DNA of 64,000 bases, taken from NCBI GenBank assembly GCA_946699065.1, contig CAMPDV010000695.1:1-64000 (forward strand). Direction: 5' to 3'. The notes under the pieces are model-generated. The model saw nothing but the letters and a program-made list of their open reading frames with translations, had not been told where the DNA came from and made no database searches. The translations under genes and the position numbers were made by a program. The stretch comes from Loxodes magnus. Taxonomy: Eukaryota; Ciliophora; Karyorelictea; Loxodida; Loxodidae. Position 1 is the stretch's first letter. The number at the start of each line of letters is the position of its first letter. Shown here in pieces: positions 3,995-58,810 of the stretch.

Positions 3995-4966
3995 ATGGAA
4001 TCTAAAAACGAAAACAGTATAATTAAGATTATATTCTTAAGAAAGATATTAAGAAGAAAAAATTAGTTAAGAAGAGAATAAATTTTGGTGTAATTCGGAA
4101 TAGTTGTCTCCAAATATGAAATAATTCCTAGCTTAATTCAATTGAGATATTTCAAATAAATAGAAACTATTTTATGATCTTAAAATCTTAAGAAGACTTT
4201 TTCTCTATAGAATAAATAATTTTATTAACAAGAAATTATCATTGAAAAAACTTATAAAAGCAATACTTTCATAGAATAAGTAAAAAATGAGATACTGTTT
4301 ATATCTGGAGGATTTTAGAGCTGTAGATTTACTATATATTCATCAAATAAAACAGAAAATTATTAAATGTAATTTGAAAGAAATACTCATAAAACTCATA
4401 AAACCAATTTTAATAAAAGGAATCTAATTTATATCATTTCAGGGTCTAATTCTATTGATAACGATTAATTATTTCATGTGGCAGAATATGAAGCATTCAA
4501 TATAAGCAAAAATAATTTTAACAGTATTTAAGCTATCTAAATTCCAGTTAATTTTTTTGGATGTGACTAACATAATAAATAGATATATGTATTTGGTGGA
4601 TTTAATTAGTAATAAAATTATTGTAAGGATATTTAAGTATACGATATAATTAGCAATGAATGGAAAATAAGTAATTTACATCTATTTAAAGGTGGATTAT
4701 TCTCAGCAATATTTATTCCTCAAATAAAGGCTTTTCTAATATATGCAAACTAAAAATAATTAGATACCTTACTATTTGATTTTTAATCTATTCAAATTAA
4801 AGGCTAGCCATATCCAATGAATTTGAGTGCTTAATGTGATAATAGAAAACCAGTTCTAAGCAAAAATTAGGATTTTTAATTCAATCTTGATAATATGCTA
4901 TATAATTATGATCTGATTACTAAAAAGTGGAATCTGATCCAGTGGGATTGGTAAACTTTGTAATGA
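3995..4966 (+). CDS. kelch-motif protein, one internal TGA
   Basis: Read with TAA/TAG as glutamine, the frame starts at ATG 3995 and ends at TGA 4964-4966. One in-frame TGA (4175-4177) interrupts it, after which it stays open for 262 codons. That part has kelch-like blades: LFISGGF, then a weaker IYIISGS, then IYVFGGFNQ followed by VYDIISNEW. The C-terminus YDLITKKWNLIQWDWQ carries the Y-D-x(6)-W spacing typical of kelch repeats. Kelch repeats build beta-propellers that bind partner proteins. Tryptophan here is written TGG, and the frame ends naturally at TGA. The 5' end is uncertain because of the internal TGA, which could be a mutation, a missed intron or a sense codon. Confidence 0.5.
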
Positions 4967-13580: not shown

Positions 13581-13965
13581 TATTTTTGATGGTATTAAAT
13601 CTTATCTGTAGAAAATTTTAATATCTTTCATATTATTAGATTTTTTCTTAATTGAATAATAGTATGAGTTAGATTATTTAAGCACTTCTTTAAGTTTTTA
13701 TTATGAATTTCTAATTTCATTTTCTTATAAAAGTGGTTTATTCAGACTATATTTTAAATTATTTATTTTATGTTTAGATATAGCTAAAGTTTTTGTTATT
13801 CCAAAATTTTTTATCTCATAGTTATGTTGTATATAACTTAGAGTAAAAGTGCCTGATAGTGTTAATTTAAATAATTTTATTTATCAATGAGCTATAATTT
13901 GTTTTGCAATCTTTTATCATTTCATATTTATAATTGAATCCTTACGCTATTGTTTTACATCTTAA

Positions 13966-14874
13966 TCAATTTCGAATTTTGTAATGATATTTCTTAGGTT
14001 TAATCAATTAAGGTTTTAACTTGAACTTCATTTAAATTACACGGCTTTTAATTCTTTTTCCAGTTGGATAGTTAATTAGCTTTCTAATAAATTTTATATT
14101 TAGCTTAGTTCTTTTAAACTGTTAATAGTTTTTTAGAGCATCATAATATAGTTAAGTTATATAGTACTATTATCTACCTTTATCCTATTGAATATGATCT
14201 TTCAAGTATTTGCTTTAAGTTAGCTATTTTCTAGAATTTCTACTTGCAAACCTATTTTATTTTATGTTTGCTTAATTATTTAATTAAGAAAATTTAGTTA
14301 ATACAAGGATAGGATGACGAAATAAATATTTCATAAATAAAGTAATAATTGAAAATTACTATAAAAAGTCTACCTTACCAAAAATAGTAGACAAATGAGT
14401 TCTATAACTGAGAATATAGAGTAATTCATAAATATTACTGTAAGTACTCTAATAACCAATACTATAAAGTTTATATTTTAAATTTGACTAACTAATGATT
14501 CTTATTATCATATACCTTTGACTATTTATATGCAGCTAACTAAATTTATTTTATGTTTTCTTTTTCTCATATCCAGTCTTAATATCTTTGATCATTTCAG
14601 GACTTTCTTTTGCTTATTTCTAGTTGATAAATTATGTAAATATCTTAAACTTCTCTATACTTTTTTAAGAATTGAAATACTTTAATTCCCTAGGCGTTAA
14701 AATTATGTTGTTAAATTTATAAAAATTTTTTATATTGTAACAAATAGTTTTTGTATAGAGTTAAACTGAAAGTTATTTGATAAAAAATTAAGATGAAAAT
14801 AGTTTTATTGGTAAGATCTTTTAAGAGTTAATGAAATTATTTCTGCTACAAGCAGTATACATTCTGATTCTCAT
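13966..14874 (-). CDS. 302-aa protein of unknown function, copy A
   Basis: ATG at 14874-14872 opens 302 codons with no TGA and ends at TGA 13968-13966. The partner in copy B (54427-55335) has exactly the same length and the same stop. Alignment shows two patches where copy A is shifted out of the copy B frame and then restored by compensating indels, near 14470-14530 and 14730-14870. Copy A is therefore slightly damaged but open. The product is basic, Gln- and Lys-rich and has no Trp. One segment has several hydrophobic residues (LFMKYLFRHPILVLTKF). No domain was recognised. It is divergently oriented from the RING gene 680 bp away, and the pair is duplicated together. Confidence 0.6.
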
Positions 14875-15549
14875 ATATTTAAGTTTAGTACTTATTATAA
14901 GATGGAATTATTATTATTTATTTTAATAGTGTTTCGATATTAGGACTTAATGGTTATTTAAGAAATTAACTACTTAAATAATTTTCTTTAAATGATTTAC
15001 TGTAGTTAAGTTTCAAGTAAAGGATTCATATGAAGTGATTTACTTTAAAGTTTCTAATAAATTTTTAAAGCTAATAGAAGGAGATATTAAATTTTGTGTT
15101 GAAGTAAAGCTGAATACAAAATGTATTTGAAGGAGAATCTAAAGAAGAGTTTCTTAAATATTAATTATATACTTATTAAAAAAAATCATTTTAAGTAGTT
15201 TTCATCTAAGTTAATTAAGGTTTACTGTTTTAGAGTATCTGAATGGTAAGTTAAAAGATTAATTTGAGATAAAGGGTAAGAAAAGACTAATAATTATGAA
15301 TTAGCACAATTTAACAAAAAGATTAAATATTAGTTTTGTTATTAATTTTCTTTGTAGAAGAAGATGAATCCAAGAAGATATATAGAAATTCAAGATATGT
15401 GGTTCTTATATTAATAATACTAAAGTTTCATAAAATTATTATTATTATTTTTAGCTACGTGTTTTTTTAATTTCATAATATTGTTTAACATATACTTACG
15501 TGGTTTTTGTATATAAGGAATTGTTTTTTCTAAAAAATAATAATAAGAA

Positions 15550-17607
15550 ATGTCCTAGGTTGTTTAATGTCAATCTTGTAACGGAGATTTCGACGGTTAG
15601 GAAAAGCTTCCCATGTTGTTGCCATGTAAGCATGATATGTGTTATCTATGTGCGCATGATCAGTATCTAAAAACCAAAAGTATCAAATGTGCAAATTGTC
15701 AGCAAGTTTATAAGATTCATCCTTCAAAGTTGTAAGAAGACAGTTAGTTACTTAAGTATCTTGAGTAGAAGAGTATCATGGAGAGTATATCATTGTTGGA
15801 GAATCAATCACTGAGATTGCGTTAAGCTTAGACTTAATTGTCTAAGGTCTAAATTACTTTCATCTAGTAGTTGATTAGGCACGTGAGTAGTTACGTTTTA
15901 AAGGGCAATATTGTTTTATAAAGGTAGTTGTTTGACTAGGATAGATAAATATAGGAGTAGTTAAGGTTCTTAAAAATCTAGAGGTAAGTAATAACTATTT
16001 GCAATAATTATTAGTAATAGCCATTAGAATTACTAAGGTTAGGATATTTCTAGGTATGAGTCTAAGGTGTTGAGATTGTTAGATGAGGTTTAAAGGATCA
16101 TCGATGTGAGGGTATCGGTTAATGTTTACGAGGAGTTGGACAATTATAAGTTGAGTCAGGAGTAAATGGTTAAGAAAAATGATTATTTGAGGAGTGAGAT
16201 ATAGAAGTTGAATGATTAAGTCTAGAATCAGTAATAATAGTTGACTTAGTTATAAGGTTAGTTGATCTAGTTCTAATAAGTAACGCCAGTAGTGTAGTCT
16301 AATTAGCCAATTTCTCCTCTATAAAATATTCCTCAGTAGGCAAAGAAATAGGATATCAGTATAACTATCGTATCGCCGAATAATAAGAAATTAACGCTCA
16401 AGGTCAAATAAGAAACTACTATCTGGTAGATAAAAGAATAAATCGAAAAATAAACTTAGTTATGATCATCAACTCTCGACATCTTTAAGAGCAATACTAA
16501 ACTGGAGGACGGTTAATCAGTATCGAGTTTATAAATTGTCGATGGGGAATAGCTTCAAATGAAGTTAAGTAAGTTTAAAAGTTAAATGTATTATTAGATG
16601 GTAAGTTTACTATATAAATAATTTTAGGAAGTATGTCACATTTTTAAAACATATAGAGAGTAAGTATTATAATATTCTTTAAACATATAGAAGGTAAGTA
16701 TTTTAATATTCTTTAAACATATAGCATGTAAGTATTATAATATTCTTTAAACATATAGTTGGTAAGTATTTTAATATTCTTTAAACTTATAGTTGGTAAG
16801 TATTATAATATTCTTTAAACATATAGGGGGTAAGTATTTTAATATTCTTTAAACATATAGAAGGTAAGTATTTTAATATTCTTTAAACATATAGGATGTA
16901 AGTATTTTAATATTCTTTAAACATATAGAAGGTAAGTATTTTAATATTCTTTAAACATATAGAAGGTAAGTATTTTAATATTCTTTAAACATATAGTTTG
17001 TAAGTATTTTAATATTCTTTAAACATATAGAATGTAAGTATTTTAATATTCTTTAAACATATAGCTGGTAAGTATTTTAATATTCTTTAAACATATAGAT
17101 GGTAAGTATTTTAATATTCTTTAAACATATAGAATGTAAGTATTTTAATATTCTTTAAACATATAGGGAGTAAGTATTTTAATATTCTTTAAACATATAG
17201 ATGGTAAGTATTTTAATATTCTTTAAACATATAGATGGTAAGTATTTTAATATTCTTTAAACATATAGAATGTAAGTATTTTAATATTCTTTAAACATAT
17301 AGGGAGTAAGTATTTTAATATTCTTTAAACATATAGATGGTAAGTATTTTAATATTCTTTAAACATATAGAGAGTAAGTATTTTAATTTTCCAATTTAGA
17401 GAGTATTTATTAATATTGATAGTATGTAAGGTGTATTTATAGTTTTTTTTCTGTATTTTAGATCGTAGGTTTAGAATAATCAAAATAGGAGGTGAGTTAT
17501 TAATTATGTTAAATAGAATGTATGTTAGTTTAAGGTAATTATAAAGGGGGTGAGTTAGTGTTTTAATGAGTTTAAAATAGGACGTGAGTATCAATATAAC
17601 ATAGTGA
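15550..17607 (+). CDS. RING + coiled-coil + ubiquitin-like protein with micro-exon tail, copy A
   Basis: Exon 1 (15550-15983) encodes a RING finger with Cys/His at residues 7, 10, 26, 28, 31, 34, 47 and 50 (C-x2-C-x15-C-x-H-x2-C-x2-C-x12-C-x2-C), then Gln-rich coiled coil. A 31-nt intron (15984-16014) follows, and exon 2 runs to 16600. Residues about 259-328 resemble ubiquitin: KLTLKVKQETTIWQIKEQI, then SNTKLEDGQSV and LQIVDGEQLQMKL. From 16601, 31 introns separate 30 single-codon exons and then the TGA at 17605-17607, giving a predicted 370 residues. RING proteins are usually E3 ubiquitin ligases, and a ligase role here is inference. An in-frame TGA (16463-16465, residue 295) lies inside the ubiquitin-like part, so this copy may be broken unless UGA is read there. 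Copy B has a sense codon at that point and its own TGA nearby. Confidence 0.7.
15984..16014 (+). other. intron 1 of the RING/ubiquitin-like gene, copy A
   Basis: 31 nt from GTAAGTAATAAC to AATTATTAG, phase 2. Removing it joins the RING/coiled-coil frame to the frame carrying the ubiquitin-like domain. Without removal the frame hits TGA at once. Copy B has the same-length intron at 56439-56469. It has the length of the array introns downstream but a different interior. Confidence 0.8.
16601..17604 (+). repeat. array of micro-introns separated by single-codon exons, copy A
   Basis: Thirty-one consecutive segments begin GTAAGT, GTATGT, GTGAGT or a similar donor and end in AG, each followed by exactly 3 nt. 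The central 21 (16660-17370) are near-identical 31-mers (GTAAGTATTTTAATATTC to TTTAAACATATAG), giving a 34-bp tandem period. They contain about four substitutions in 651 nt. The 22 codons between and beside them are of 11 kinds: AAG and ATG four times each, AAT three, AGA, TTG and GGA twice, and CAT, GGG, GAT, TTT and CTG once. The introns at both ends (27 and 26 nt upstream; 26, 20, 36, 24, 25, 27, 31 and 21 nt downstream) differ in sequence from the array but obey the same 3-nt spacing. A four-codon block ATG-AAT-GGA-ATG occurs twice. Confidence 0.93.
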
Positions 17608-18366
17608 TCAATTGGTGAGAGTGAGTGAATGACTTTAAATACTTAATTTAACTCTACTTAATTTAGCTTTACTTAATTTAAACTCTGCTTAATTTGAACT
17701 CTACTAAATAAAAGTTTATTAATTAGGTATTTATATATAAGGGGTATTAAAGGTATTAATGATTAATATTAGTATATCTTAGTATATTTTAGTATATCTA
17801 AATATATTTAAATATATCTTGTATATCTTTAGTATATCTTAATTTATCATTTGAATATATCTTAATTTATCATTTGAATATATATTATTGTGTTTGTTAT
17901 TATGAAGTTATATAATAATTGATATTATTATAATTGATATTTTTAATTTAATTTAAAATTTTGTTATTTGTTTTTTGATTTTTTACAAGGTTGTACGAGT
18001 GTGGAGAATGAGTGTAAAAGGTATAAGTTATTTTATAATACTGTATTTTAAGTATTGGGGTTAGAATATTTGTATAGTAGTTTAATAATAATATAAGTAG
18101 TTGTTAAGGAATTATTTTTCTTAAGGGTAAAGGTATATTGTTAAAGAGTAATTAGAGGAAGGTTATATTGTTTTTACTTTCTAAAAATGATAAAAGTTAT
18201 AAAAGTTAAGGGGTAAAAAATTGTGTAAATTAAGGCAGAGATATTTTTTAAAATAAAAGGACAGAAAGAGTGTAGTTGTAAAGAAAGGAGAAAGATACTT
18301 TTTTAAGAGTTTATAGAAAGTAATCCTTTTTAATATGTATTAGATAATTTCTAAATTATTTAAAGT
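17608..18366. other. AT-rich 3' flank with short direct repeats
   Basis: Loose repeats of ACTCTACTTAATTT (17647-17705) and of AGTATATCTTA (17770-17880) follow the gene. The flank is shared with copy B to about 18070. No gene is seen. Confidence 0.5.
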
Positions 18367-18489: not shown

Positions 18490-20131
18490 ATTTAATTTTG
18501 TTTTTTTGCTCAGCGTTTTCCACTATAGGGAATGTTTGGGACGGAATAAACTTGTGAAAAGCTGGATGTAAATTTCTAAAAGGAATAAGGAAAGTTGAAA
18601 AGGGGATAAAGGTTAGTGAGTGGTTGTTAAATAATTTTAAAAGTTGATTTTTTGAAAGTGAAAATTTTTGAGAAGGAAATGAAAAATCCATAATGAATAA
18701 TTTTTGATAATTTTTAATTTTTTTTTTGGAATTAGAGAAAAGTAAGAAAGTTTTTTTTGTTTGGTGGAAAGAGTATAAAAGGGAAAAATTTTTTGAATTT
18801 TGGAAATGGAATAAAAAAATTTAATAAAAATTAAAAATTGTTTGTGAAGGGTAGTAAAAAGAGTATGGTATGGTGTTTTTGATTTCAAAAATCGATTTTT
18901 TTTTGTAGTTAGAGAAAAGTATTTTTTCCTAATAAAGTCAAAATTTATTAAATTTTGTTGTTTTCATTTTTTAAGAGTAATATGAAAAATGGTGTTAGGA
19001 AAAGTAAAAAAGTTTTGAAGATGTTTAAAATGTGAAAATTTTAATTTTGTTTTTTTGCTCAGCGTTTTCCACTATAGGGAATTTTTGGGACGGAATAAAC
19101 TTGCGAGATTTGGGATAAAAGATTTCAAAATGGAATAAGGAAAGGTGAAAAGGGAATTAAGGGGAGTAAGTAATGTTAAAATTTTCGAAATGAAAATATT
19201 GAGTAAGGAAAGAATAAAATTTATAATATAAATTTTGAAAAAAGTTTTTTTTTTTAAAAGAGAAAAGCTATAAAAGTGGGAAAAATTTTGAATTTTGGAA
19301 ATGGAATAAAAAAATTTATAAAAATAGAAGGTTTGGAAACAGTAGTTAGAAAGCGAAATAGTAGTTGAAAAAGTAAAAATAGATTTTGAAGAGGTTCAAA
19401 ACGCGAAAATTTTAATTTTGTTTTTTTGCTCAGCGTTTTACACTACAGGAAAATTTTCGGACGGAACAAAATTTTTTTTGGAATTTTAAAAGAAGGATAA
19501 GATTTTTAGATTTTTAGATTTTTAGATTTTTAGATTTTTAGATTTTTAGATTTTTAGATTTTTAGATTTTTAGATTTTTAGATTTTTAGATTTTTAGATT
19601 TTTAGATTTTTAGATTTTTAGATTTTTAGATTTTTAGATTTTTAGATTTTTAGATTTTTAGATTTTTAGATTTTTAGATTTTTAGATTTTTAGATTTTTA
19701 GATTTTTAGATTTTTAGATTTTTAGATTTTTAGATTTTTAGATTTTTAGATTTTTAGATTTTTAGATTTTTAGATTTTTAGATTTTTAGATTTTTAGATT
19801 TTTAGATTTTTAGATTTTTAGATTTTTAGATTTTTAGATTTTTAGATTTTTAGATTTTTAGTAATCAATTTTTTTTTAATTTTATAATTTTTTTAAACTA
19901 TGAATTGGAAAAATTCAAAAAGTAAAAATAATTAATTATTAATTAATTTTCTTTTTTATCTAATTTGAATAAAATAATTTTTTATAATTTTAGTGGAGGT
20001 GAGGCTAAGAAAGTTTTAATCTATATCAATTAATTTTTGTTTAACTGATAAAATCGATTTAAGATGTAAAAATTTAATTTTTATTTTTCGCTCTGAATTT
20101 TACTATAGAAGATTTTTCTGATGGAACAAAA
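18490..20131. repeat. degenerating tandem repeat with GCTCAGCGTTTTCCACTATA core
   Basis: A roughly 65-bp core occurs at 18490-18553, 19037-19102, 19405-19472 and, decayed, 20066-20131: T-rich lead, GCTCAGCGTTTTCCACTATA, then GGGACGGAATAAA. Intervening sequence is also repeated, for example a stretch around TGAATTTTGGAAATGGAATA at about 18794 and 19291. The larger unit is therefore about 370-550 bp. Conservation drops from left to right. Short minus-strand standard-code frames inside it look like by-products of the repeat. No function was recognised. Confidence 0.8.
19501..19860. repeat. perfect octamer satellite, 45 copies of GATTTTTA
   Basis: Exactly 360 bp are made of 45 consecutive copies of GATTTTTA with no mismatch. 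It lies between the third and fourth cores of the larger tandem repeat. Perfect identity points to very recent expansion or strong homogenisation. Confidence 0.98.
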
Positions 20132-34800: not shown

Positions 34801-36600
34801 TCACTTCCTCACATTTTTATCCAAACTACCTGATGTTATTCACTAGTCATCACTACTAAGTACCACAGTCCTTACTTCAGCTGTATGCCCCGTTAAAGTA
34901 CATACACATTCTCCTGTTTAGAATTCTCATATCTTTATTGTTTTATCTCCATTTCCTGATATTATAAAACTATTGTCGCTTGTCAATGTAAGTACTTCTA
35001 TTCAACCTTAATTTCCTGTTATTGTTCTTATACATTATCCAGTCTTAAAATTCCATATCTTAATCATCTTATCAGAACTTCCAGAAACGATTCTTCTCTG
35101 GTCACTTGATATTACTACATAATTTACAGATTATGTATGTCCCTTCAAAGTACTCTTTAACTAGTTAGCTTGTAAATTTCATATCTTTATTGTATTATCT
35201 ATACTTCCAGATAAAATATAGTTGTTTTCACTTGAAATTGCTATAGATAAAACTTTAATCGTATGTCCCTACAAGAAACTTTTTAATTAATTAGTTTTGA
35301 AATCCCAAATTTTTATCGTATTATCATAAATACAAGAAACGATTTACTTCTGGTCATTTGTTAGAACTACTAAGTAAACAGAACTATTATGTCCAAATAA
35401 AGTAATCTTTAACTAACCGGACACTAATTCACATATCTTTATAGTATTGTCATCACTTCTAGATATTATATAGTTGCTGTCACTCGATATAGATGCAATT
35501 AAAACAGAACCTGTATGTCCCTTCAAATACTCTTTAATTAGTCACTATTAAAGTCCCATATTTTTATCTTATTATCATCGCTTAAAGAAACAATTCATTT
35601 TTGTCTCTAGATATATTTACAGATAATATATTTTTTGTATGTCCCTACCTTATTTGATCTGTGTATAAAAAGATACTTAATCTTAAAATTAATTAAATTA
35701 ATTAATAGCTTTCTATTAATAATTTACTGTTTTGTTTCTATATAAATATTTTAAATAAGTACATTAAATTTATGATTCTTAAGAGTTTATCCATTACCTC
35801 TGAAATTTATATTAAACTTACTTCTGGTTTTTATAAATATTCTTTATAGAATTCTTGGTACATCTACTTTAATTAGTCTCTTTCTTAGATTGATATATTT
35901 TAAAATTTCATTAACTAGCTTGATAATAGTTTTATCTAACTCATTTAATGTTTAATAATCTCTTTATGTTATTCTATCTGTCTACGGTAATCTTATATCT
36001 TACATTTAAAGTTATTGCTTAATTAAAAATAATTTTAGTCGTGGTTAATTAAAACAATATAGGCCTGCTAAGCTTTTAATATTGCACTTTAAACTTTTTA
36101 AATTATTTAGGAATATTCTAAATTTGAAGCAACATGTCGTTTATTTCATTTCAATTAGCTTTATAACTCCTGTAATTTATTTATCTCCTTCTTTGTTGTT
36201 ACTTAGTGACTTATAGTTCTTCATATATTTTAGAACTATCTGTGAATAAATAATTTTCGAGGTCCTCTAGAAGTTTATTTACTATAGCCAGCTTTATCTT
36301 TTTTATCTTCTATAACTCTTAACTTACTCTATTCTCTAATGATTTTAACTATACTATATTTGATTATTTAAAGCTTTGCTTGATAGTGTCTATTAATAGT
36401 TTATCACTTTATAATTAAGTAGGTGAGATTTAGTATGAATTTTGCAGTTAATATCCAAACATTAGATTTATTTAGACCTTAAGAACTAGTTATGAATACA
36501 CTCTTAATACATTTTATGAACTACATTCAAGTATCATAGGAACCTTCACCTAGTCATAAAAATCTCCATTACATGCTTTACATTTGATGTTTACGAACAT
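34801..36600 (-). pseudogene. RING-like + coiled-coil + WD40 protein, decayed
   Basis: ATG 36600-36598 begins MFVNIKCKACNGDFYDQVKV, closely matching the RING start of the gene at 15550. The second half of the RING is shifted out of frame. A Gln/Lys-rich coiled coil follows (LKSLENRVSQELQKIKKIK). From about 35640 to 34801 there are seven WD40-type repeats, with GH(T/N), SSD and TIKIWD/N elements spaced about 42 residues apart. TGA replaces Trp at the IKIW position twice (35181-35179, 34929-34927) and at the final RKW (34803-34801). Three more TGAs fall where repeats often have Trp. A frameshift lies near 35520. WD40 propellers recruit partners, so a ligase scaffold role is likely by analogy, but this copy looks dead. 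Confidence 0.75.
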
Positions 36601-54385: not shown

Positions 54386-54398
54386 TATTTATAATTGA
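54386..54398. repeat. right target-site duplication of the non-LTR element
   Basis: Second copy of TATTTATAATTGA. Sequence resumes here in register with copy A. Confidence 0.93.
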
Positions 54399-54426
54399 AT
54401 CCTTACGCAATTTTTTTACATCTTAG

Positions 54427-55335
54427 TCAATTTCGAATTTTGTAATGATATTTCTTAGGTTTGATAAATTAAGTTTTTAACTGGAACTTCACTTAAGATA
54501 CACGGCTTTTAATTCTTTTTCCAGTTGGATAGTTAATTAGCTTTCTAATAAATTTTATATTTAGCTTAAATTTTTTAAACTGTTAATAGTTTTTTAGAGC
54601 ATCATAATATAGTTAAGTTATATAGTACTATTATCTACCTTTATCCTATTGAATATGATCTTTCAAGCATTTGCTTTAAGTTAGCTATTTTCTAGAATTT
54701 CTACTTGCAAATCTATTTTATTTTATGTTTGCTTAATTATTTAATTAAGAAAACTAAGCAAATACAAGGATAGGATGACGAAATAAATACTTCAATAATA
54801 AAGTAATATTTGAAAATTACTATAAAGAGTCTAACTCACCAAAAATAGTAGACAAATGAGTTCTATAACTGAGAATATAGAGTAATTCATAGATATTACT
54901 GTAAGTACTCTAATAACTAATACTAAAAATTTCTATTTTAAATTTGACTAACTAAATATTCTTATTATCAATACCTTTTACTATTTATATGTAGCTAACT
55001 AAATCTTATTTTTATGTTTTCTTTTTCTCATATCCAGTCTTAATGTCTTTGATCATTTCAGGACTTTCTTTTGCTTAATTCTAGTGAATAAATTATGGAA
55101 ATATCTTAAACTTCTCTATACTTTTTTAAGAATTGAAATACTTTAATTCCCTAGGCATTAAAATTATATTGTTAAATTTATAAAAATTTTATATTGTAAT
55201 AAATAGATTTTGTTTAGAGTCTAACTGAAAGTTATTTGATGAAAAATTAAGGTGAAAATAGTTTTATTGGTAAGATCTTTTAAGAGTTAATGGAATTATT
55301 TCTGCAATAAGTAGTATATACAATCTGATTCTCAT
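54427..55335 (-). CDS. 302-aa protein of unknown function, copy B
   Basis: ATG 55335-55333 to TGA 54429-54427 gives 302 codons with no internal TGA, identical in length to copy A. Conserved blocks include MPRELKYFNSQKSIEKFKIF, STYSNIYELLYILSYRTHL and LINYPTGKRIKSR. Where copy A is locally out of frame, this copy reads more smoothly (DLVSYIQIVKGIDNKN), so it is probably closer to the ancestor. The product is basic and lacks Trp. No known domain was recognised. It sits head-to-head with the RING/ubiquitin-like gene. A retrotransposon has landed just past its 3' end without damaging it. Confidence 0.65.
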
Positions 55336-56004
55336 ATATATAAGTTTAGTACTTAATATAAGATGGAATTATTATTATTTATTGTAATAGTGTTTCAATA
55401 TTAGGACTGAATGGTTATTTAAGAAGTTGACTACTTAAATGATTTACTGTAGTTAAGTCTCAAGTAAATGTTTCCAAAAAGATTAAGTTATTTACTTTAA
55501 AGTTTGTTATAAATTTTAAAAGTTTATAAAAGGAGATATTAAATTTTGTGTTGAAGTAAAGCTGAACACCAAATGTATTTGAAGGAGAATCTAAAGAAGA
55601 GTTTCTTAAGATTTATTAATATACCAATTAAAAAAAATCATCTTAAGTAATTTTCCTCTAAGTTAATTAAGGTTTACTGTTTTAGAGTATCTGAATGGTA
55701 AGTTAGAAAGATTAATTTGAGATAAAGGGTAAGAAAAGACTAATAATTATGAATTAGCACAATTTAACAAAGAGATTGAATATTAGTTTTGTTATTAATT
55801 TTCTTTGTAGAAGAAGATGAATCCAAGAAGATATATATAAATTCAAGATATGTGGTTCTTATATTAATAATACTAAAGTTTCATGAAATTATTATTATTA
55901 TTATTTTATCTACGTGTTTTTTTAATTTCATAATGATATTTAACGTATACTTACGTGGTTTTTATATATAAGGAATTGTTTTTTCTAAAAAATAATAATA
56001 AGAA

Positions 56005-57756
56005 ATGTCCTAGGTTGTTTAATGTCAATCTTGTAATGGAGATTTCGACGGATAGGAAAAGCTTCCCATGTTGTTGCCATGTAAACACAACATATGTTAT
56101 CTATGTGCGCATGATCAGTATCTAAAAACCAAAAGTATCAAATGTGCAAATTGTCCGCAAGTTCATAAGATCCATCCTTCAAATTTGGTAAAAGACAGTT
56201 AGTTACTTAAGTATCTTGAGTAAAAGAGTGTCATGGAGAGTATATCATTGTTGGAGAATCAATCACTGAGATTGCGTTAAGCTTAGACTTAATTGTCTTA
56301 GGTTTAAAATACTTTCATCTAGTAGTTGATTAGGCACGTGAGTAATTATGTTTTAAAGGGCAATATTGACTTATAAAAGTAGTTATTTGACTAGGATAGA
56401 TAAATTTAGGAGTATTTAAAGTTCTTAAAAATATAGAGGTAAGTAATAACTATTTGTAATAACTATTAGTAATAACCAATAGAATTACTAAGGTTAGGAT
56501 ATTTCTTAGTATGAGTCTAAGGTGTTGAGATTGTTAGATGAGGTTTAAAGGATCATCGATGTGAGGGTATCGGTTAATGTTTATGAGGAGTTGGACAATT
56601 ATAAGTTGATTAAAGAGTAAATGGTTAAGGAAAATGATTATTTGAGGAGTGAGATATAGAAGTTGAATGATTAAGTCTAGAAGCAGTAATAATAGTTGAT
56701 CTAGTTCTAATAAGTAACGCCAGTAGAGTAGCCTAATTAGCCAATTTCTCCTCTATAAAATATTCCTCAGTAGGCAAAGATATAGGATATCAGTATAACC
56801 ATAGTATCGCCGAATAATAAGAAATTAACGCTCAAGGTAAAATAAGAAACTACTATCTTGTAGACAAAAGAATAAATCTAACAATAAACTGAGTTACGAT
56901 CATGAACTCTCGACATCTTAAAGAGCAATACTAAACTGGAGGATGATTAATCTGTATCGAGTTTATAAATTGTCGATGGGGAATAGCTTCAAATGAGAAG
57001 AAGTAAGTTTAAAAGTTAAATGTATTATTAGATTGTAAGTTTATTATATAAATAATTTTAGGATGTACGTCACATTTTTAAAACATATAGCATGTAAGTA
57101 TTTTAATATTCTTTAAACATATAGTCTGTAAGTATTTTAATATTCTTTAAACATATAGTCTGTAAGTATTTTAATATTCTTTAAACATATAGATGGTAAA
57201 TATTTTAATATTCTTTAAACATATAGCAAGTAAGTATTTTAATATTCTTTAAACATATAGAATGTAAGTATTTTAATATTCTTTAAACATATAGAATGTA
57301 ACTATTTTAATATTCTTTAAACATATAGAATGTAAGTATTTTAATATTCTTTAAACATATAGATGGTAAATATTTTAATATTCTTTAAACATATAGCAAG
57401 TAAGTATTTTAATATTCTTTAAACATATAGAATGTAAGTATTTTAATATTCTTTAAACATATAGAATGTAACTATTTTAATATTCTTTAAACATATAGAA
57501 TGTAAGTATTTTAATATTCTTTAAACATATAGAGTGTATTTATTAATATTGATAGTATGTAAGGTGTATTTATAGTTTTTTTTTCTGTTTTTTAGATCGT
57601 AGGTTTAGAATAATCAATATAGGAGGTGAGTTATTAATTATTTTATATAGAATGTATGTTAGTTTAAGGTTATTATTAAGGGGGTGAGTTTGTGTTTTAA
57701 TGAGTTTAAAATAGGACTCTATGAAAAATCGAATTGCTGTGAAATATTCTGAGTGA
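56005..57756 (+). CDS. RING + coiled-coil + ubiquitin-like protein with micro-exon tail, copy B
   Basis: Exon 1 (56005-56438) keeps all eight RING ligands. Intron 1 (56439-56469) is 31 nt. Exon 2 (56470-57034) has a clean 7-codon deletion relative to copy A and otherwise keeps frame through the coiled coil and ubiquitin-like domain. Twenty-one further introns then separate 20 single-codon exons from a last exon. That exon starts GAC at 57715, encodes 13 residues in all and ends with TGA 57754-57756 (366 residues predicted). One in-frame TGA (56903-56905) lies eight codons into the region where copy A has its own, different TGA. The last six array-distal codons TAT, ATC, GAG, AAT, GGG, GAC are identical in both copies. 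An E3 ligase role is inferred from the RING. Confidence 0.7.
57035..57714 (+). repeat. array of micro-introns separated by single-codon exons, copy B
   Basis: Thirteen near-identical 31-nt introns at 34-bp period (57094-57532) lie between 14 single codons: AAT six times, TCT, ATG and CAA twice, and CAT and AGT once. A five-unit block ATG-CAA-AAT-AAT-AAT is repeated in tandem, together with its GTAAAT and GTAACT donor variants. Unrelated introns of 27 and 26 nt precede the array. Introns of 20, 37, 24, 25, 27 and 31 nt follow it, and all leave exactly one codon between them. The array codons differ from copy A, while the outer introns are nearly identical to those of copy A. Confidence 0.93.
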
Positions 57757-58810
57757 GTGAATGACTTTAAATACTTAATTTAAACTCTACTTAATTTAAA
57801 ATCTACTTAATTTAAACTCTGCTTAATTTGAACTCTACTAAATATAAGTTTATTAATTAAGTATGTACATAAAGGGTATTAAAGTAATTAATGATTAATA
57901 ATAGTATATTTAAATATATCTTATATATTTTTAATATATCTTAATTTATCATTTGAATATATATTATTGTGTTTTTTATTATTGTGCTTTTTTATTATGA
58001 AGTTATATTATAATTGATATTTTATAATTGATATTTTTATTATATTTTGTTATTTGTTTTTGATTTTGTATAAGGTTGCATGAGTGTGGAGAATGAATAT
58101 AAAAGGTTTAAGTTATTTTATAATAATGTATTTTAAGTATTGTAGTTAGAATATTTAGTATTGTAGTTTAATAATTATAAGTTGTTCATTTAAGAATTAA
58201 AAATTGCTAAAAAAAGTAAATTAAAAATCAGAAAATTTATTTTCTTCTAAAAATAATTTAATTGCAAATATTAAATTATAAAATGAGAAAAAAATTTAAT
58301 AGCCAAAAAAATTAAAATTTTTTAGACTATATCATATGAATCTTTATTCATACACCAATAAAAACTTAAAAATTTTTAATTTTTTATAATGAAAGAAAAC
58401 ACTTTTTTAGCAGAAGATATGAAAAATTTTATCAAATATATTGGTTTATTCTAGAAAAAAACTAAATATATTAAGCTAAAATTTATTATTAGTAATGCAT
58501 TGCTTTCACAACAATTATTTTTAAATCTAAGTTTAGTGTTTAATAATATTAACTGTAATATTTAAAATTAAATTATAGTTAACTGAAATATTTTAATTTT
58601 CAAACCAAACAATTTTAGAAGTTAATTAAAAATAATTAAATATTAACTAATATTACTATAAAAAATTACTTTGAAATCTATAAAACTAAAATTTTTTAAT
58701 ATTGTTAATCTTTTAAAAATTTATAAAAATGTTGAGGAAATTAAATCTAATAACATAATAAAAGATATTAATAATTTTAAATTAAAATAAATATTTTTAT
58801 TAATATATAA
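57757..58810. other. AT-rich 3' flank shared with copy A
   Basis: Matches 17608-18070 and then 20508-21117 of copy A, the satellite block being absent. No gene is seen. Confidence 0.6.

Follow-up and report, generated by a model that had tools for sequence, protein, structure and literature searches.

A multi-copy gene family of the ciliate Loxodes magnus with a C-terminal tail putatively encoded by arrays of three-nucleotide exons

Introduction

Can the end of a protein be encoded by a long run of exons, each only three nucleotides long? This question is raised by a gene of Loxodes magnus on contig CAMPDV010000695.1, of which positions 1 to 64,000 were analyzed (hereafter the window); two copies of the gene lie inside it. 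The published macronuclear assembly of this ciliate comprises 706 Mbp, with TAA and TAG encoding glutamine and TGA serving as tryptophan or stop (PMC11441545). The passages of that article on exons and tandem repeats hold no description of the arrays reported here, and ubiquitin is absent from its text. Likewise, we found no report of runs of 3-nt exons in the accessible parts of the open-access literature.

Results

Layout of the gene and its tail

Copy 1, its exons translated with TAA and TAG as glutamine, is organized as follows, together with the second copy:

15550..15983, + strand: exon 1, 434 nt, with start ATG at 15550; putative RING-type zinc finger and beginning of a coiled coil
15984..16014, + strand: intron 1, 31 nt, GTAAGT...TTAG, placed by inspection
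16015..16568, + strand: exon 2, 554 nt; coiled coil and ubiquitin-like domain; its last base, A, is codon position 1
16569..16597, + strand: first tail intron, 29 nt; exon (retained) in the earlier phase-0 model
16598..16600, + strand: 3-nt exon ATG, from the tail parse
16601..16659, + strand: two 5' outer introns, 27 and 26 nt long, and the 3-nt exons GAA and AGA, from inspection and parse
16660..17373, + strand: central array of 21 units, each made of a 31-nt intron and a 3-nt exon of variable sequence, from the parse and TRF (period 34)
17374..17583, + strand: 3' outer block with introns of 26, 20, 36, 24, 25, 27 and 31 nt, from inspection, parse and shuffle control
17584..17607, + strand: last intron (21 nt) and TGA (17605-17607), from inspection and parse
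56005..57756, + strand: second gene copy (L063), with a shorter array (57074-57538) that follows the same 3-nt rule

Throughout the tail (16569-17607), GT..AG introns of 20-36 nt alternate with exactly 3 nt. A first-pass annotation had read 16601-17607 as 30 exons of 3 nt and 31 GT..AG introns ending in TGA at 17605-17607, and our parse of that stretch agrees; parse and TRF also return its 21 central introns as 31-nt copies within one 34-bp unit and its ten outer introns of 20-36 nt. Its tail start at 16601 has to be moved, because the candidate intron 16569-16597 and the exon ATG (16598-16600) lie upstream. The 3-nt exons of the 3' outer block are, in order, AGA, TAT, ATC, GAG, AAT, GGG and GAC, and a 38-nt version of the last intron is also conceivable. 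For intron 1, an alternative acceptor at 16020 keeps the frame too; in the alignment of family copies, a 13-column gap in two of them coincides with this intron, and a 7-column gap in one copy (16016-16022) lies just past it.

The terminal exon of the second copy (56005-57756) lacks the last intron. Both window copies lie within a duplicated block (13925-18114 and 54386-58199), approximately 40 kb apart, and several cases of copies on one strand with a spacing of again about 30-40 kb were seen on contigs C78, C310, C158 and C1978.

Three-nucleotide spacing against chance

The 249-nt 3' outer block contains an 8-intron chain at exon length 3, a chain reached by none of 5000 dinucleotide shuffles (maximum 5); at exon lengths of 1, 2 and 4-9, no chain is longer than 2. 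In the 92-nt 5' outer block the chain length is 3, a value also reached by 7 of 5000 shuffles. Across the whole tail of copy 1 the chain rises to 32 at exon length 3; exon length 7 gives a chain of 23, because a second GT lies four bases downstream in each unit, and all other exon lengths within 1-12 give at most 3. With both tails removed from the window, the longest 3-nt-exon chain is 2 on the + strand and 4 on the - strand, the latter near 34829.

The 3-nt rule in the close family

The assembly searched contains 705,730,643 bases. A DNA search with exons 1-2 returned 399 candidates, and the best 40, which were scored, all match at 85-100% identity. We parsed 41 loci including both window copies, yielding 37 unique tails and 1058 triplets (17 of them terminal TGA); L071 and L072 repeat other loci and were dropped, and L008 was inspected only. 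Some copies may be alleles, because some are identical and the published assembly is described as unphased in the portion of PMC11441545 available to us.

Allowing 3-nt exons only, the parse starts at the first donor and reaches the conserved GGG exon unbroken in 35 of the 37 unique tails, even as tail introns vary in length among them. Variable spacing in other copies, combined with absent transcription, had been named beforehand as an outcome that would count against the 3-nt exons; the spacing was kept in these 35. In the other two tails, the parse stops at a rearranged unit after 105 exons (L067) and at a lost acceptor after 131 exons (L066), beyond which the array continues. Predicted tandem tiny exons that are each a multiple of 3 nt, as in micro-exon genes, run unbroken in 35 of 37 tails, and GT and AG stand at the ends of the predicted introns as in spliceosomal introns, with one acceptor lost, in L066.

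The parser itself demands 3-nt exons, a GT donor and an AG acceptor, and counts made without it therefore weigh more. Between consensus unit flanks, located independently of the parser, the spacer is 3 nt in 849 cases, 4-24 nt in none and 0-2 nt in one. Among the distinct spacer contexts in the fetched loci, 473 are of 3 nt, one of 2 nt and one of 10 nt; the sole 2-nt case, in L073, can alternatively be parsed as a 34-nt intron with exon TAA. The drifted copy L008 maintains 3-nt exons between introns of several lengths, with its first 3-nt exon missing.

Intron lengths and the reading frame of the conserved end

Central introns of the 35 tails (n = 473, giant arrays left out) measure 31 nt in 424 cases, 32 nt in 21, 29 nt in 15 and 30 nt in 11, with single introns of 34 and 27 nt. 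Homologous outer introns differ among copies by 1, 2 or more nt, and the first tail intron is 29 nt long in all 37 unique tails and, by inspection, 41 nt in L074 and 36 nt in L075. The summed intron length modulo 3 is 2, 1 and 0 in 16, 11 and 8 of the 35 tails; in an earlier set of 27 tails, it was 2, 0 and 1 in 13, 7 and 7.

These sums bear on whether the array might be translated unspliced as a tandem protein repeat, in which three 34-bp units would form a 34-residue repeat with TAA and TAG as glutamine and TGA ambiguous. The array is indeed open under the ciliate code. However, the 16/11/8 spread means that a reader keeping the introns would meet the conserved end in all three frames, depending on the copy, whereas for a reader removing the introns no shift arises. 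The units also have a strong donor at their start and AG at their end. On the strength of the modulo-3 spread, we rejected this read-through and assign it only a very remote chance.

Distant members and chains elsewhere in the genome

A protein search with exon 2 gave 624 candidates; the best 150 were scored, and all 150 match at E 2e-27 or better. Within these matches TAA and TAG are dense and TGA is rare, which fits a code where TAA and TAG are glutamine and TGA seldom codes.

Two of the chain loci described below, on contigs C2 and C41, belong to the RING/coiled-coil/ubiquitin-like family as distant members. Their array introns show no relation to those of the window, and the exons are again 3 nt long. 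The distant members L074/L076 and L075/L077 have different array introns and a common end, GGG GA(C/T); L074 and L075 contain one 6-nt exon each (AACAAG and AGCAAG, respectively).

A generic chain pattern that excluded the unit family of the window produced 8330 matches with 3-nt spacers and none in the reversed control; these matches overlap heavily inside arrays and are not gene counts, and 100 of the 8330 were listed. The same pattern gave 132 matches at 2 nt and 18 at 4 nt. A slightly looser pattern at 6 nt gave 5 matches (reversed control, 1), all five of which can be re-read as 3-nt exons after AAG. The generic pattern reveals several unrelated unit families. As judged from these sequences, the 3-nt rule is a property of the predicted exons, not of one repeat.

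Spacers of 2 nt are common in long arrays on few contigs (7 contigs among 100 listed of the 132 matches). In the very long arrays C675:204633-216714 and C4762:129-10839, spacers of 2 nt and some of 4 nt occur, which gives the impression of a loosened 3-nt rule.

Long arrays and the many 2-nt spacers of these few contigs are what might be expected of a satellite in which three positions form a mutational hot spot and spacing is free of selection. Such a satellite would leave unexplained the unrelated outer introns, the several unrelated unit families and, at the loci examined, the tie to one gene family, and the relaxation is limited to few contigs among the matches listed. We therefore regard it as highly unlikely. 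The same 3-nt rule in two distant members with unrelated array introns also bears out the view of the first-pass annotation that this is not a plain satellite.

Ciliates eliminate short DNA elements, and the units could in principle be removed as DNA in the manner of internal eliminated sequences instead of being spliced. Yet the assembly is consistent with the macronucleus, from which such elements would have disappeared, the unit ends are GT..AG with U1-like donors, and a search of the genome for the start of the tail in joined form, exon 2 running directly into the first triplets, gave 0 matches. In the part of PMC11441545 available to us, moreover, L. magnus is described as lacking extensive elimination. 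Removal at the DNA level is thus extremely improbable.

Variation of triplets and introns

Per-site diversity was calculated from 427 units with a 31-nt consensus-like intron. It reaches 0.71, 0.70 and 0.69 at the three exon positions and averages 0.013 in the intron (0.0133 in the unfiltered 424 central 31-nt introns), an approximately 50-fold higher variability per site in the triplets. A plain satellite would be expected to vary evenly over its unit; here, diversity is about 0.70 at 3 positions and 0.013 at 31.

Introns within an array are nearly identical, and neighbouring triplets have a mean Hamming distance of 1.94, against 2.02 for random pairs from the same array (SD 0.04). Near-identical introns beside neighbouring triplets that are barely more alike than random pairs imply either that the introns are homogenized without the exons or that the exons are strongly diversified. 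The proposed origin of the array by tandem duplication of an intron plus its codon is therefore upheld in part: unit and block duplications are visible in window copy 2, L066 and L067, whereas the slight likeness of neighbouring triplets (1.94 versus 2.02) speaks against it.

The central triplets use 33 of the 64 kinds, and among 508 of them TAG is absent and TAA occurs once (in the L073 reading). In a first set of 379 central triplets, neither TAA nor TAG was seen, against approximately 14 and 11 expected, respectively. This contrasts with the exons, where TAA and TAG are the commonest glutamine codons. The triplets do not match the codon usage of the gene in any phase, the likelihood lying below the null for all three.

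Triplet usage unlike that of the gene is what one would see if the triplets never reached the mRNA, the whole array being either untranslated or spliced out as one block from the first donor to the last acceptor; identical splice sites would ease such skipping. Nothing would then maintain the 3-nt spacing in ten unrelated outer introns, in the drifting L008 and in the distant members, however, nor GT and AG in each intron, and the outer triplets GGG GAC/GAT are conserved in the distant members examined. Removal or silence of the array as a whole is accordingly unlikely, though less so than the satellite.

Protein domains and selection on exons 1-2

The protein of window copy 1 matches the Pfam profile Rad60-SLD above its cut-off (24.2 bits versus 23.8, E = 3e-5); ubiquitin (E = 7e-5) and a weak zf-C3HC4 match (E = 0.004) fall below theirs. 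The best RING profiles also remain below cut-off, with 17.5 bits (cut-off 21) for this protein and 23.5 (cut-off 25.2) for the L075 protein, and the RING-like Cys/His spacing fits by eye. The ubiquitin profile scores 22.6 against a cut-off of 25.4 in the L075 protein. A PDB search returned E-values from 1.4e-15 upwards, the lowest being summed across polyubiquitin repeats, and single ubiquitin stretches match weakly (E about 0.006, 5jg6).

Exons 1-2 are under purifying selection, with a dN/dS of 0.53 over 35 unique copies. In exon 2, the chosen frame has the lowest dN/dS (0.55, versus 0.82 and 1.22 in the other two). Four of sixteen 20-codon windows exceed 1, with values of 1.80 and 1.39 in the ubiquitin-like domain and of 1.05 and 1.71 in the coiled-coil part. 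In the copy alignment from 16023 on, two copies have a gap of 21, two a gap of 3 and one a gap of 1; the 7-nt gap at 16016-16022 in one copy falls outside this count. Highly variable sites cluster at 15630-15661 in the RING-like loop and at 16420-16512 in the second half of the ubiquitin-like domain; dN/dS is above 1 in 20-codon windows of the latter cluster.

Phase of the tail

Exons 1 and 2 (434 and 554 nt) sum to 3n+1, and the tail is therefore in phase 1 if 16569-16597 is an intron and in phase 0 if that stretch is retained. The lengths of this first intron, 29, 41 and 36 nt, are not all equal modulo 3; were the stretch coding, family members would end up in different frames. In the phase-1 reading, leucine after GGA is preserved by CTG, CTC, CTT and TTG, a preservation that in spliced forms hinges on the acceptor choice of the last intron. 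In the same phase, the eight distinct terminal exons lacking the last intron end in CEIF, which we take to resemble a prenylation motif. Substitutions in these eight gave ratios of 0.89 for phase 0, 2.78 for phase 1 and 0.53 for the phase-2 control, and the test is weak because of that control value. The phase 0 assigned initially thus keeps a slight lean from terminal-exon substitutions, whereas exon lengths, the first intron and the preserved leucine favour phase 1. Taken together, the tail leans to phase 1, and phase 0 is doubtful; if phase 1 applies, every tail codon is split by an intron. The 3-nt rule is independent of phase.

Splicing of the arrays

The architecture is real, recurrent and constrained. 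Splicing unit by unit is the best supported reading of the sequences, and we consider it probable that these are functional multi-copy protein-coding genes whose variable C-terminal tail consists of 3-nt exons joined by spliceosomal removal of introns of 20-41 nt. Each 3-nt exon would be joined through ordinary removal of one such intron; over 8 bases, the donor GTAAGTAT is complementary to the 5' end of U1. The removals would probably proceed one after another from 5' to 3', since after each step the growing exon 2 would abut the next GTAAGT donor. Array introns are mostly 20-38 nt long. Among RNA-supported introns of L. magnus, 93% are 25 nt or shorter according to the part of PMC11441545 available to us, which places the 31-nt introns in the tail of the length distribution.

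Under unit-by-unit splicing, the array would grow, shrink and shuffle by single units, and with the introns removed and every exon 3 nt long, such changes would keep the frame, an automatic preservation that the first-pass annotation had anticipated and the comparisons support. The tail could therefore change rapidly in length and sequence with the downstream end in frame, as comparison of the copies suggests.

A more tentative idea is that the arrays act as a codon-level diversity generator, combining skipping variants, codon swaps between genes and introns kept identical by a process that spares exons. With exons of 3 nt and identical splice sites, any donor could join any acceptor in frame, so one gene could yield many tail variants. 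Recombination between identical introns would swap single codons between genes, and the process sparing exons while keeping array introns identical may be reverse splicing or very short gene conversion.

Relation to known systems and implications

Like these tails, schistosome micro-exon genes have many tiny symmetric exons in a row, encode variable proteins and keep the frame on skipping. Their exons are about 6-36 nt and their introns much longer; the array exons predicted here measure 3 nt and are separated by introns of mostly 20-38 nt, and one array contains more than 131 such exons. Aphid bicycle genes share with this family fast evolution and a gene structure with many small exons, although their exons are larger than the 3-nt exons here, and we know of no tandem intron-plus-codon units among them. 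Tetrahymena 90-bp-exon LRR genes, also from a ciliate, likewise grow by tandem duplication of exon/intron units, with a fixed exon length and one intron phase; their unit is a 90-bp protein repeat, whereas here it is a single triplet. In the available parts of the literature, bicycle genes are described as a rapidly evolving family whose members are identified by their many-small-exon structure (PMC9168663), and the LRR genes as a 90-bp-exon family (PMC6564038). Splicing is able to include lone exons of 3 nt and 1 nt, according to the accessible portions of PMC7392893 and PMC4674806; those exons are isolated, in contrast to the runs of dozens here.

If the tails are spliced as read, the accurate splicing events needed per transcript would number from about 20 to more than 130, each adding one residue, and the exons seem too short for two side-by-side spliceosomes. 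The arrays would then probe how small an exon can be, as well as intron definition and sequential splicing, and duplications carried by introns would let the family change its protein one codon at a time. Should RNA confirm the splicing, genes with dozens to more than 100 three-letter exons would represent an extreme gene design. Because common aligners probably fail on 3-nt exons, annotation is likely to have overlooked such genes.

Other features of the window

Downstream of copy 1, at 19500-19861, 45 perfect copies of the 8-bp unit AGATTTTT occur, and repeated blocks nearby carry similar strings, such as GCTCAGCGTTTTCCACTATAGG. A Kelch motif (Pfam E = 2e-10) is predicted in an open frame at 4178-4963 of the window.
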